Made by a program: the position numbers and the translations under genes
Assembly: GCA_001793865.1 (NCBI GenBank)
Contig: MGIS01000012.1
Location: forward strand, 27,237-60,325
Source of the DNA: Candidatus Wolfebacteria bacterium RIFCSPLOWO2_01_FULL_47_17b
GTDB lineage: Bacteria > Patescibacteriota > Minisyncoccia > UBA6257 > JAGOQP01
Reading direction: 5' to 3'
DNA: 33,089 bases
The notes under the pieces: model-generated
The model's input: only the letters and a program-made list of their open reading frames with translations
Told to the model about the DNA's origin: nothing
The model's database searches: none
In this document: positions 939 through 5,974 of the stretch, in pieces
How the letters are laid out: each line of letters opens with the position of its first letter
How positions within the stretch are numbered: position 1 is the stretch's first letter

Positions 939-1107
939 GTTCACGCAGTCAAGATTCAAAATTAAAAATTCGAAATTGCATCCTTTGCGGATGCTTCCCT
1001 GGCCCTGTGGACAAACATTGGAATACTTCTACGCTCAGGACGTTGCGGTTTCGGCTACGACGCTCCTCTGAATTATTCTATCTGTTTTCCGGAGTTTTCC
1101 GGAGGGC

Positions 1108-1143
1108 AACATCCACACAGTTGTCCACAGAGTCAGGGTATTT
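1108..1143 (+). repeat. 36-bp direct repeat R1, copy 1
   Basis: This segment begins AACATCCACACAG and ends AGTCAGGGTATTT. It is identical over 36 bp to 2721-2756. It carries the 3' arm of the ncRNA closing stem, and it marks the left border of tandem unit 1. Confidence 0.9.
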
Positions 1144-1214
1144 ACCCCCACACCAAACAGAGAAGCGACATGAAAAGTGTCGCTTTTTGTAAAACTCTCG
1201 TTTGGTGTGGGGGT
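1144..1214 (+). mobile_element. 71-bp MITE-like palindromic insertion carrying a terminator
   Basis: Perfect 15-bp terminal inverted repeats (ACCCCCACACCAAAC at 1144-1158 and GTTTGGTGTGGGGGT at 1200-1214) enclose a further AGAG/CTCT pair and a central hairpin with a U-run. The 6-bp sequence GTATTT flanks both ends (1138-1143 and 1215-1220) like a target-site duplication. The paralogous repeat at 2751-2756 has a single GTATTT and no insertion, which serves as an empty site. No coding capacity is present. Any transposase would have to be supplied in trans. Confidence 0.75.
1164..1190 (+). terminator. Rho-independent terminator of the ncRNA
   Basis: Stem AGCGACA/TGTCGCT with a 7-nt loop, followed by TTTTTGT. 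It lies inside the MITE-like insertion, so the insertion seems to have given the ncRNA a new 3' end. Confidence 0.8.
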
Positions 1215-1225
1215 GTATTTGAGAA

Positions 1226-2720: not shown

Positions 2721-2756
2721 AACATCCACACAGTTGTCCACAGAGTCAGGGTATTT
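2721..2756 (+). repeat. 36-bp direct repeat R1, copy 2
   Basis: Identical to 1108-1143. This copy has one GTATTT (2751-2756) and no 71-bp insertion. The pairing 5' arm of the ncRNA is absent here, so this is a truncated or ancestral form of that region. It marks the left border of unit 2. Confidence 0.9.
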
Positions 2757-2766
2757 TAATTGAGTT

Positions 2767-2839: not shown

Positions 2840-3532
2840 TTAGAAAAATTCTACACTCGCTAATATTTGTGTATTTGTTGGAACTTCTACTTTTTCAGAA
2901 TTTGCATCATAGTCATATGTAAAAATAAAGAATGAGCTTGCGGTATACAAGTCATTTCCAAATCTTGGGAGATAGTAGGTTTTCACAATTAAACCATTCT
3001 TCCATTTTCGTGTAGTTTCCACCCCTTTTTTTCCTCCTATCACAACATCTCTTACTGTATTTACCCATGATGGAGACTCACTATTTATTATCTCACTAAT
3101 TGTCCGATTTCGTCCAAGGCTCGGTTGATAAAAAGCATCTATAGATTGTATGGTTAAATCGATGACGAGGTGTGTGATCCTTACGATATTTCCATCTTCA
3201 TATACTTCTAATGATGGCTCTGGTGGGTTAATTTTTATATAAGCTGGATAGCGAAGCCTGATTTTATATTCATTATTGACATAAGTTTTCCAATCTTTTG
3301 TTTCTCCATTATTAATTGAAAAAGTATTTTTTAATTGAGCGTTTGGAGTTATTGCAGATAGTGTTGATTTAGCTGTCGGGGAAAGCATTGGAGGCGAAAC
3401 CTCCGGAGACGATGAAACTGCAGGCGAATACACAACCTGCGGATTGGTTTCCTGACCTTTAGGAATGAGCACGAAAGCCGCTAGGGCGATAACCACAACC
3501 ACCAGCGCCCCGATGAGTATGTTTTTTAACAT
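2840..3532 (-). CDS. Membrane-anchored extracytoplasmic protein (unit 2), function unknown
   Basis: This 230-residue paralogue of the gene at 1276-1962 has the same N-terminal transmembrane anchor (about residues 4-23), then a Ser/Pro-rich stretch (about 35-65). The following domain starts with WKTYVNNEYKIRLRYP and is of the same general short-domain type, but otherwise is not alignable to its paralogue by eye. No catalytic motif is recognised. The promoter TTGCTT-16-TACAAT ends 6 nt before the ATG, so the mRNA is probably leaderless, unlike the unit 1 gene. The terminator at 2790-2818 follows. A role at the cell surface is inference only. Confidence 0.8.
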   Translation of the reverse strand: MLKNILIGALVVVVIALAAFVLIPKGQETNPQVVYSPAVSSSPEVSPPMLSPTAKSTLSAITPNAQLKNTFSINNGETKDWKTYVNNEYKIRLRYPAYIKINPPEPSLEVYEDGNIVRITHLVIDLTIQSIDAFYQPSLGRNRTISEIINSESPSWVNTVRDVVIGGKKGVETTRKWKNGLIVKTYYLPRFGNDLYTASSFFIFTYDYDANSEKVEVPTNTQILASVEFF

Positions 3533-3660: not shown

Positions 3661-4154
3661 CATTTTGAACGATATTCTAGCTTAGTTCCTAAATTATCCA
3701 TAAACACAATCTTCTCTTTTGCTGTCTTTTTGAGAAGCGTTGAACATGTCTTCTTATATGGACTCATCACAATTCTGAGTTTTTGATTCTGATACAGATG
3801 TCTGACTAAACTATAAAAGTCTCCGTCACTTGTCACAATAACCGCTTTATCATATTTCTCATAATCAAGCATTGCTTGTAACACTAGATCAGCATCGATG
3901 TTTCCCTTTATCCTTCCGTCTTTGTCGGGAACAACTGGTTTAAAAACAATGATATACCCTGCTTTCTGCAAGAATGAATACATATCCTTATTTTGCGGAA
4001 TGTAGCCGATAAAAAGATACGCGGTTGAAACTGAGTATTTTTCAAGCAGATATTTTCGAAAACGGACGAGATCTAATTTCCATCCGAGTCGCTGAATACC
4101 CAAATGTAAATTTTGACTATCTATAAAAGCGAAGTTGTTTTCTTCTTGTTTCAT
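3660..4154 (-). CDS. NYN/PIN-like domain protein (predicted ribonuclease)
   Basis: A 164-residue NYN-domain (PIN-like fold) protein of the LabA/DUF88 type, whose members are metal-dependent RNases. Acidic residues typical of the fold are visible: Asp12 in FIDSQNLH, the GNIDADLVLQAM block with two Asp residues, and VTSDGDFYSLV. Nearly the whole protein is this domain. The ATG at 4154 sits in GGCTGTCATGAA; upstream is TTGTAT-16-TATACT (4206-4179) with a further TATAAT at 4173-4168. The gene shares its promoter with the mazF-like gene, and both start ATGAAACA. Substrate and role, including whether it is a toxin, are not shown by the sequence. Confidence 0.8.
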   Translation of the reverse strand: MKQEENNFAFIDSQNLHLGIQRLGWKLDLVRFRKYLLEKYSVSTAYLFIGYIPQNKDMYSFLQKAGYIIVFKPVVPDKDGRIKGNIDADLVLQAMLDYEKYDKAVIVTSDGDFYSLVRHLYQNQKLRIVMSPYKKTCSTLLKKTAKEKIVFMDNLGTKLEYRSK

Positions 4155-4206
4155 GACAGCCGAGTAAATTATATAGAAAGTATACGCCTTTCCTGCAAAG
4201 ATACAA
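4154..4206 (-). promoter_or_regulatory. Promoter of the NYN gene
   Basis: On the minus strand: TTGTAT (4206-4201), 16-bp spacer, TATACT (4184-4179), then TATAAT (4173-4168) and GGCTGTCATGAA over the start. 4154-4185 matches 2646-2677 at 28 of 32 positions. Confidence 0.6.
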
Positions 4207-4216
4207 CATCGCGCAC

Positions 4217-4274
4217 GAAGTTCGTGAGACCAAGGTTCGGCCTTTGCAGACCAAGGCCGAACCTTACGAACTTC
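4217..4274 (+). repeat. 58-bp palindromic repeat element, full-length intergenic copy
   Basis: Nested arms: outer GAAGTTCGT/ACGAACTTC and inner AAGGTTCGGCCTT/AAGGCCGAACCTT with an 8-nt loop. A close copy lies at about 30064-30111. Core versions lie inside coding regions at 11641-11675 and 21217-21251, and a diverged one at 16607-16640. It has no U-run, so it is not a standard terminator, though it lies just downstream of the pilB-like stop codon. Confidence 0.8.
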
Positions 4275-4279
4275 CCGCT

Positions 4280-5974
4280 CTATTTCAGCTCTTCAACGTT
4301 CCCTGTCACGTCTTCCACTTCGCTTAATGACGTGATACCAGTGGCGTATTTGAGCACCCCGTCCTGCTGCATAGATACAAATCCCGTGTCCTGCACGGCT
4401 TTTTTGATGGCAATTTGTCCCGCGTCTTTTCCAATGAGCTCGCGTATTTCATCATTCACCACAAGCAATTCAAATACTGCTATCCGCCCCTTGTAGCCGA
4501 TATTGTTGCACGCGGGGCATCCGACTGGCTCGAATAATTTTATATCCTTCATGTATTTCTCCTTATCAACCCTCTCCGGCAGCCCTTGTATGTATGTTTC
4601 AATCTTTTTTCGTTCCTCTGCGGTGACTTGTTTTTCCTTTTTACATACCGCGCAGAGCTTTCGCACCAGCCGTTGGGCAATAAGTAGGTTGATAGCAGGC
4701 GCTATGCTATTCGGTTTCGCTCCTAAGTCCAGCAAACGCGCAATGCCTCCCGCCGCTTCGTTGGCGTGCACGGTAGAAAACACCAGGTGTCCCGTCAGGG
4801 CCGCCTGAATGGCGATTTCGGCCGTTTCTTTGTCGCGAATTTCTCCCACGAGTATAACGTCCGGATCCTGGCGCATAAGCGATCGCAATCCTCCTGAAAA
4901 CGTATAGTCGGCCGATTCATCTACCTGCGTTTGTTCGATACCGTCCAAATGGTATTCTATCGGGTCTTCGATAGTAATGATTTTGATGCTCGGATCAAGG
5001 CGCTTTTTCAAGAACGCATAGAGCGTGGTGGTTTTACCCGATCCGGTTGGTCCGGTGTTGAGCGCCATGCCGTTTGGCTTGTGGAGCTGCTCTTCTATTA
5101 TTGCAAGATCATCGTTACGAAGCCCCAGCTGGTCCAGCGATACTTGTATCGCCTCGGGATCCAAAAGGCGCATAACCACCACTTCGCCGAATTCCGACGG
5201 CGCGACCGCCACACGAACTTCAATATCCTGTTTAACGGGTAAATCAATAGTAAAGCGGCCGTCTTGTGTTTCGTCTTTCACATTCAACTTGAGACCGGAA
5301 AGCAGTTTGATGCGGGATATTATCGGCCGGTGCGTGCCTTTTGCAAATTCAGTAAATATATCCTGCAGCATACCGTCGATTCGGTAACGGAGTCGCAACT
5401 TCTGATTTTGCGGTTCGATATGAATGTCGGACGCGCGATTTTCCACCGCTCCAATAAGAATGGTCTGTATCAGGGCGGATATATTTCCCGGATTGTTGAG
5501 TTTTCGTATCGCTTCTTTAACGGCGTCCAGAGTCTTGAGATTTTGTTTTTTTGCCTCTTCCTCCGTCTGCTCGGCTATCTGCACCGATCCCGTTATTTTT
5601 TCGTGTTGTTTTGCGGCAAAGCGATAGTAGGTGAGTATATGCTCCAACGAGCTGAGCGATACTACATGGACGGTTGGCTTATATCCCTTGTTTTTCAAAT
5701 CGTCCAAAATCTTCCGTGTAGCCGGAGACATAGGATCAAACGCCGCAACGGCTATTTTTCTGTCGGCTACAGCAATAACCGCGCAGTGGCCTTCGTGCGC
5801 GGATGGTTCGTCCAGGAGCGCGAGCGCTTCCAAATTTACCGAGATTTTAGCCGGTTCAAGGTACGCCGCGTGCGCGTGTTGGCCACGCCTTTGCGCGTCG
5901 CGTTCTTCCGCGTCGCGCCGCATCTTGGAAAGCTGGTCCACTACATCATCGGATAGCATGGATCCAGTATACAC
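4280..5974 (-). CDS. pilB: Type IV pilus assembly / type II secretion ATPase (PilB/GspE family)
   Basis: PilB/GspE hexameric ATPases drive pilus extension or type II secretion from the cytoplasmic side of the membrane. In this 564-residue product the N-terminal ~130 residues are a divergent GspE-N-like part, followed by the ATPase core with Walker A GPTGSGKT (308-315), a Walker B region RQDPDVILVGEIRD, a His-box HLVFSTVHAN, and a zinc-type tetracysteine motif (Cys441, Cys444, Cys486, Cys489). The frame opens with GTG right after the tsaE stop; an ATG at 5959 is at least as likely a start. The gene is last in a packed run after iscS, htrA, clpB and tsaE. No other pilus genes are in the window. 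Confidence 0.93.
   Translation of the reverse strand: MYTGSMLSDDVVDQLSKMRRDAEERDAQRRGQHAHAAYLEPAKISVNLEALALLDEPSAHEGHCAVIAVADRKIAVAAFDPMSPATRKILDDLKNKGYKPTVHVVSLSSLEHILTYYRFAAKQHEKITGSVQIAEQTEEEAKKQNLKTLDAVKEAIRKLNNPGNISALIQTILIGAVENRASDIHIEPQNQKLRLRYRIDGMLQDIFTEFAKGTHRPIISRIKLLSGLKLNVKDETQDGRFTIDLPVKQDIEVRVAVAPSEFGEVVVMRLLDPEAIQVSLDQLGLRNDDLAIIEEQLHKPNGMALNTGPTGSGKTTTLYAFLKKRLDPSIKIITIEDPIEYHLDGIEQTQVDESADYTFSGGLRSLMRQDPDVILVGEIRDKETAEIAIQAALTGHLVFSTVHANEAAGGIARLLDLGAKPNSIAPAINLLIAQRLVRKLCAVCKKEKQVTAEERKKIETYIQGLPERVDKEKYMKDIKLFEPVGCPACNNIGYKGRIAVFELLVVNDEIRELIGKDAGQIAIKKAVQDTGFVSMQQDGVLKYATGITSLSEVEDVTGNVEELK

Follow-up and report, generated by a model that had tools for sequence, protein, structure and literature searches.

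A 69-bp hairpin at positions 1145 to 1213 of the window (the whole 33,089-nucleotide stretch of DNA that was analyzed) almost certainly belongs to a family of mobile palindromes. Related copies are dispersed through the window's own genome (G000; 729,804 bp; Patescibacteria-like, and placed toward Parcubacteria by its relatives and hits) and through other genomes, the family makes a 4-bp target duplication, the site of the window copy is empty in relatives, and other members lie within genes and RNAs. Mobility itself is well supported by these observations, and a small GIY-YIG nuclease may be responsible for it. Our explanation as a whole, that the window holds a non-autonomous palindrome copy whose family is moved by a cognate GIY-YIG nuclease, seems to us slightly better than an even bet. 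The features concerned are as follows.

1145 to 1213, no strand: palindromic mobile element, CCCCCACACC...GGTGTGGGGG, 69 bp, in the register of the family.
1145 to 1154, plus strand: left conserved arm CCCCCACACC; the search pattern demanded this arm in all 165 pooled elements.
1204 to 1213, plus strand: right conserved arm GGTGTGGGGG; from the paired arms in the own genome.
1141 to 1144, plus strand: left target-duplication remnant TTTA, in the 4-bp register of the family.
1214 to 1217, plus strand: right target-duplication remnant TGTA, one mismatch versus TTTA, in the same 4-bp register.
1163 to 1185, no strand: inner hairpin AAGCGACA...TGTCGCTT, from fold computation.
997 to 1138, plus strand: conserved RNA-like region whose 3′ U-tract is interrupted by the element; kept in relatives without the element.
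2721 to 2763, plus strand: paralogous copy of the insertion site lacking the element (GGGTATTTTAATTGAG), from repeat comparison.

The original prediction of a mobile miniature inverted-repeat element is borne out by the further copies in this genome and elsewhere and by the empty site in ten relatives and a paralog, although the 71-bp bounds it gave have to be shifted to 1145 to 1213. The perfect 15-bp terminal inverted repeats it described are present (ACCCCCACACCAAAC at 1144 to 1158 and GTTTGGTGTGGGGGT at 1200 to 1214; 15 of 15 positions complementary), and the inverted-end pattern has a single match in the window and none in 100 shuffles. The fold (z-score, −9.0 as RNA and −9.7 as DNA) is a two-armed cloverleaf, formed by the inner hairpin and a minor TTT/AAA hairpin atop a stem in which one base is bulged, and the same layout recurs in elements of three other loci (L120, L135, and L145). 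The window copy itself carries no gene, an Rfam search found no family near it, and its right half resembles positions 98645 to 98678 of contig C23 in the same genome (85% alike). A terminator had also been attributed to the element; this did not hold as a property of the element, since the inner hairpin is a borderline 8 bp, the terminator scan lists it on the minus strand only, and most copies have no such hairpin.

A genome-wide search for further paired copies, proposed earlier as a check, found about 10 elements of 27 to 111 bp in the own genome, all intergenic or at gene edges, and more elsewhere. The arm CCCCCACACC occurs there 11 times forward and 9 times in reverse (reversed-pattern control, 3/0), almost always as one arm of an inverted pair. 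Exact duplications flank the copies at C23:40183 (TCAA/TCAA), C23:167081 (CGAG/CGAG), and C23:168139 (TTTA/TTTA), the last of which has two mismatches in its arms. When 84,980 species genomes were scanned for exact paired arms, at least 115 paired stretches came up; among the matches listed, most are from Patescibacteria, with others from Omnitrophota, Elusimicrobia, groundwater Deltaproteobacteria, one WOR-1 genome, and one Brocadiaceae genome, and as nearly all of these genomes are MAGs, some phylum placements may be binning errors. Distribution is patchy, since just 14 of 380 genomes in an even sample of the phylum have a strict match (reversed pattern, 0). The highest copy number, about 80 copies (86/87 arms), was found in one 2-Mb genome, and viral contigs yielded no exact paired-arm match.

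Elements across the family range from 25 to 303 bp. The outer 10 bp are constant, and the interiors vary yet remain base-paired; all four Watson-Crick types are used at interior pairs 13 to 18, which argues that pairing rather than sequence is preserved there (position 11 was fixed as A/T by the collection pattern, so a bias at that position is not interpretable). Some members are composites of about 77 to 165 bp, in which a palindrome or GC-rich hairpin occupies a constant position within another to give a cloverleaf-like arrangement (loci L202 to L208; G104:C4:3530-3694; G331:C17).

The target duplication of the family is exactly 4 bp, and that of the window copy, TTTA/TGTA, has one mismatch. 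The GTATTT repeat put forward originally as a 6-bp duplication is indeed present on both sides (1138 to 1143 and 1215 to 1220), but it differs from the duplication that the family makes. With the ends set as originally proposed (A...T inside the element), none of 122 distinct elements shows even a 4-bp non-palindromic repeat, compared with 36 of 122 in the register abutting CCCCC/GGGGG; in this second register the direct repeat is exactly 4 bp, with no 5-bp excess. A 6-bp target duplication was rejected, as no other element shows one in the register proposed for it, and the GTATTT match probably combines the duplicated TTTA, a ATTTATTT micro-repeat, and one T-to-G change. Exact 4-bp duplications abut CCCCCACACC...GGTGTGGGGG in 61 of 165 distinct elements (2,000 shuffles: mean, 9.0; maximum, 20), and the reconstructed empty sites of these 165 pooled elements give a symmetric target, G-TWWA-C, the central four bases being those duplicated. 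Of the 104 imperfect duplications, 75 retain YNNR at both flanks (background, 24% per site); the two members of a pair are also more alike than when shuffled.

Empty versions of the window site are found both within the window and in relatives. The paralogous empty site that had been predicted is there: the 36-bp repeat 1108 to 1143/2721 to 2756 is exact, and the copy at 2721 to 2756 has no insert. This paralogous site (GTATTTTAATTGAG) is one indel and one substitution away from the inferred target GTATTTATTTGAG. The duplication behind the comparison comprises paralogous ORFs of about 230 amino acids at 1276 to 1962 and 2840 to 3532, together with their 3′ flank. The window copy lies in the T-rich tract following the RNA-like region, which has an 18-bp closing stem in a 6S-like layout (997 to 1014/1121 to 1138) and a sigma-70-like promoter match upstream (910 to 938), and for which no significant Rfam match was found. 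Promoter-like site and RNA-like region (910 to 1140) lie upstream of a ruvB-like gene, and the last 36 nucleotides of the region are those duplicated at 2721 to 2756. Ten loci from relatives in the same family have the RNA-like region, in whole or at least at its 3′ end (71 to 100% identity over the matched parts), and their sequence continues beyond it, in most cases as a T-rich tract; the element is in none of them. The outcome that would have spoken against mobility, the same site filled in all relatives, was thus looked for among ten relatives with the RNA and was not found. Alignment with these relatives supports insertion into the U-tract of the neighboring RNA's terminator, and the insertion may have altered the RNA's 3′ end.

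Other members of the family have inserted within genes, with lengths that spare the reading frame. In 72 of 117 elements with long flanks, the length leaves a remainder of 2 on division by 3, and the 4-bp duplication brings the total to a multiple of 3. Frames are open over 150 bp on both sides of 31 elements, of which 28 have this length, a figure that is partly forced, given that no frame would stay open after a frame-breaking insert; the remaining 86 elements are free of this effect and still show the excess (44, versus 22 and 20 in the other two length classes). In the Nealsonbacterium genome G104, many copies lie within real genes, two of them in uvrA, and nearly all of these copies have a length that, with 4 added, is divisible by 3. 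A TatD-like protein has exactly 24 extra residues [(68 + 4)/3] relative to the homologue in the window's own genome, the first uvrA site has 28 residues facing 2 in a solved homologue and hence 26 extra [(74 + 4)/3], and in endonuclease V the match is about 11 of 13, again against homologues without the insert. The inserts in TruB (L196) and at the second UvrA site align over native loops in solved homologues and are less clean evidence of insertion than those in endonuclease V, the TatD-like protein, and the first UvrA site. Two prepilin-like genes (L150:3308-3916 and 3921-5204) contain in-frame elements near their N-terminal GF(T) motif (GFTPTPERA...LVWGFTILEM), and a cobalamin riboswitch in a “Deltaproteobacteria” MAG (L207:340-546) has palindromic elements in its stems.

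A candidate for the mobilizing enzyme came from longer family members, which were sought in G000 and G104. One 303-bp member (G104:C15:29994-30296; arms CCCCCACACCAAACGAACTT...AAGTTCGTTATGGTGTGGGGG; exact duplication TTCA/TTCA) encodes a GIY-YIG domain within the element, like a GIY-YIG homing element, as a complete 85-amino-acid protein on the minus strand (Pfam PF01541; E = 8.7e-14). It is the single GIY-YIG-bearing CCCCCACACC member found, and the own genome has no GIY-YIG gene between CCCCCACACC arms. Inverted arms closely bracket two further GIY-YIG genes, at G104:C13 (ACCCAGAAAGCTT) and G000:C4 (TCCCGTTAGAGAAAG), and in all three different arm families flank such genes. Of 9 GIY-YIG ORFs, 3 lie between perfect inverted arms of 12 bp or more, versus 1 of 4,000 random segments; the other 6 ORFs have none. 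The gene in the window's own genome (G000:C4:68892-69169) has arms of a second palindrome family, CCCGTTAGA, and no exact 4-bp duplication; of 29 copies of that family in G000 and G104, 20 have an exact 4-bp duplication. The CCCCCACACC and CCCGTTAGA families thus share the 4-bp duplication and make two arm families, each with a GIY-YIG-bearing member. A plasmid search gave no GIY-YIG match. The second family (TCCCGTTAGA...TCTAACGGGA) has 30/34 arms in the own genome, versus 2/3 for the reversed control, and one of its copies, with a bulged base, lies inside the window at 2604 to 2641.

Under the explanation we favor, the window copy is a non-autonomous member of a family with 10 invariant outer base pairs and a lineage-specific, self-folding interior, which inserts at G-TWWA-C with a 4-bp duplication. 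The putative mobilizer is a small GIY-YIG endonuclease supplied by rare full-length members that share the arms of the palindromes; it would recognize the hairpin arms and cut GTWWAC-like sites with a 4-nucleotide stagger. The duplicated TWWA and the element's terminal C/G would rebuild the target site at both junctions, and because the junctions recreate the target pattern, one such staggered cutter could both release the element and cleave new targets. The element, released with TWWA ends, would then be ligated into another cut site, which for the window copy would have lain in the U-tract of the conserved RNA that precedes ruvB. The retention of YNNR and the likeness of the imperfect duplications fit the joining of nearly matching or mismatched sticky ends; a further contribution to these imperfections could come from recombination or gene conversion among the copies. 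Characterized GIY-YIG enzymes such as I-TevI leave 2-nucleotide 3′ overhangs and are not known for a 4-nucleotide stagger, which makes the stagger the main weakness of the mechanism. We regard the case for the GIY-YIG protein as mobilizer of the palindromic family as evenly balanced; the nuclease could be a passenger. More tentatively, and at somewhat less than an even chance, this may be a new transposition system that combines a 4-nucleotide staggered cut with sticky-end joining, uses no DDE, tyrosine, or serine recombinase, pairs each nuclease with cognate arms, and leaves reading frames open, since each insertion adds a multiple of three bases (element length plus 4).

The elements could also be conventional MITEs, moved by the DDE transposase of an insertion sequence with CCCCCACACC ends that has since been lost, the GIY-YIG gene being a passenger or a coincidental capture. 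Such elements classically show an exact 4-bp duplication, a symmetric target, and inverted ends, and their terminal repeats need hardly exceed 10 bp; both the terminal inverted repeats and the target site duplication are present here, with one mismatch in the duplication of the window copy. This account nevertheless appears rather unlikely, because the interiors are unrelated in sequence and still palindromic, because the arms around GIY-YIG genes belong to three different families, and because the three DDE families searched (PF01609, PF13546, and PF13701) are absent from 11 of 11 copy-bearing genomes, including the one with about 80 copies. The transposase with matching ends that the original prediction led one to expect was therefore not recovered: IS4/IS5-like, IS701-like, and IS1380-like transposases were rejected as mobilizers in these genomes, the Y1 transposases present are not flanked by the arms, and what lies between shared ends is a GIY-YIG gene instead. 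Among the fetched loci, the only two distant pairs with matching duplications proved to be separate short elements flanking ordinary genes, and a kilobase-scale composite with CCCCCACACC ends was rejected.

A REP/REPIN-like route, in which a Y1 (RAYT-like) tyrosine transposase moves the element as a single-stranded hairpin, is less probable still. The imperfect hairpins with a bulged base would suit it, Y1_Tnp was detected in all 11 genomes examined, every one of them copy-bearing, and REPINs fold as a hairpin or clover (PMC3116915). However, none of 29 Y1 loci has CCCCCACACC arms paired within 1.5 kb, and on these grounds a Y1/RAYT mobilizer was rejected; near 3 of the 4 own-genome Y1 loci there are other palindromes. 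The clear 4-bp duplication also argues against it, whereas Y1 transposition of the IS200/IS605 type leaves no target duplication. Three Y1 (RAYT-like) loci (L080, L081, and L082) have palindromes of their own in their flanks, e.g., CTTACGAGGT...ACCTCGTAAG, and in L080 and L082 similar palindromes also occur within the Y1 gene. That the hairpin is immobile, a functional terminator, operator, or RNA structure conserved by selection, accords with its strong folding and with the intergenic position of several own-genome copies but is extremely improbable given the frame-neutral insertions within genes and the insertion in a stem of a cobalamin riboswitch, and for the family it is already refuted by the 4-bp duplications and by the empty sites in relatives and the paralog.

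The nearest known phenomenon is the Rickettsia palindromic elements (RPE), which, like the protein-coding palindromes of Wolbachia, occur between genes, in frame in conserved proteins, and in RNA genes (PMC10969869, PMC2229807). The present family shares this dispersal, with in-frame insertion in protein genes seen in other members and not in the window copy. RPE are about 100 to 150 bp and fall into several families, and their target duplication is entered as “?” (PMC2229807); the present elements are 25 to 303 bp with a fixed outer 10 bp and a free interior and, unlike RPE, have a 4-bp duplication at GTWWAC, occur in other phyla, and include a nuclease-bearing member. Bacterial MITEs (NEMIS, RUP, ERIC, and similar) are likewise short and non-autonomous with inverted ends and a target duplication, but their copies normally share an interior and the ends of a known insertion sequence, whereas here interiors differ with pairing kept and no matching insertion sequence was found. 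REPINs and their RAYT (Y1) genes offer a parallel in which small hairpin repeats are tied to a single-gene mobilizer flanked by cognate palindromes (PMC3116915); here the gene enclosed by the arms encodes a GIY-YIG protein instead, insertion duplicates 4 bp, and the Y1 loci lack these arms. In a 2024 study of rRNA inserts in CPR bacteria, GIY-YIG genes were confined to inserts that do not resemble known introns; most inserts were short (<200 bp), unclassified, and ORF-less, and most lay at the top or base of stem-loops (PMC11270868). Those inserts, described for rRNA only, come from the same broad host group and would fit the GIY-YIG idea; a term search of that text for palindromes and inverted repeats gave no hits. 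In the literature, mainly the freely accessible part, we found nothing on palindromic elements in Patescibacteria, nor the arm sequence in a relevant context.

If the proposed explanation is true, it would provide a concrete, testable mobilizer for RPE-like in-frame “selfish” palindromes and would help explain solo GIY-YIG genes and short unexplained protein and RNA inserts in the streamlined Patescibacteria. It would also describe a system in which a mobile element lengthens conserved proteins without breaking them.
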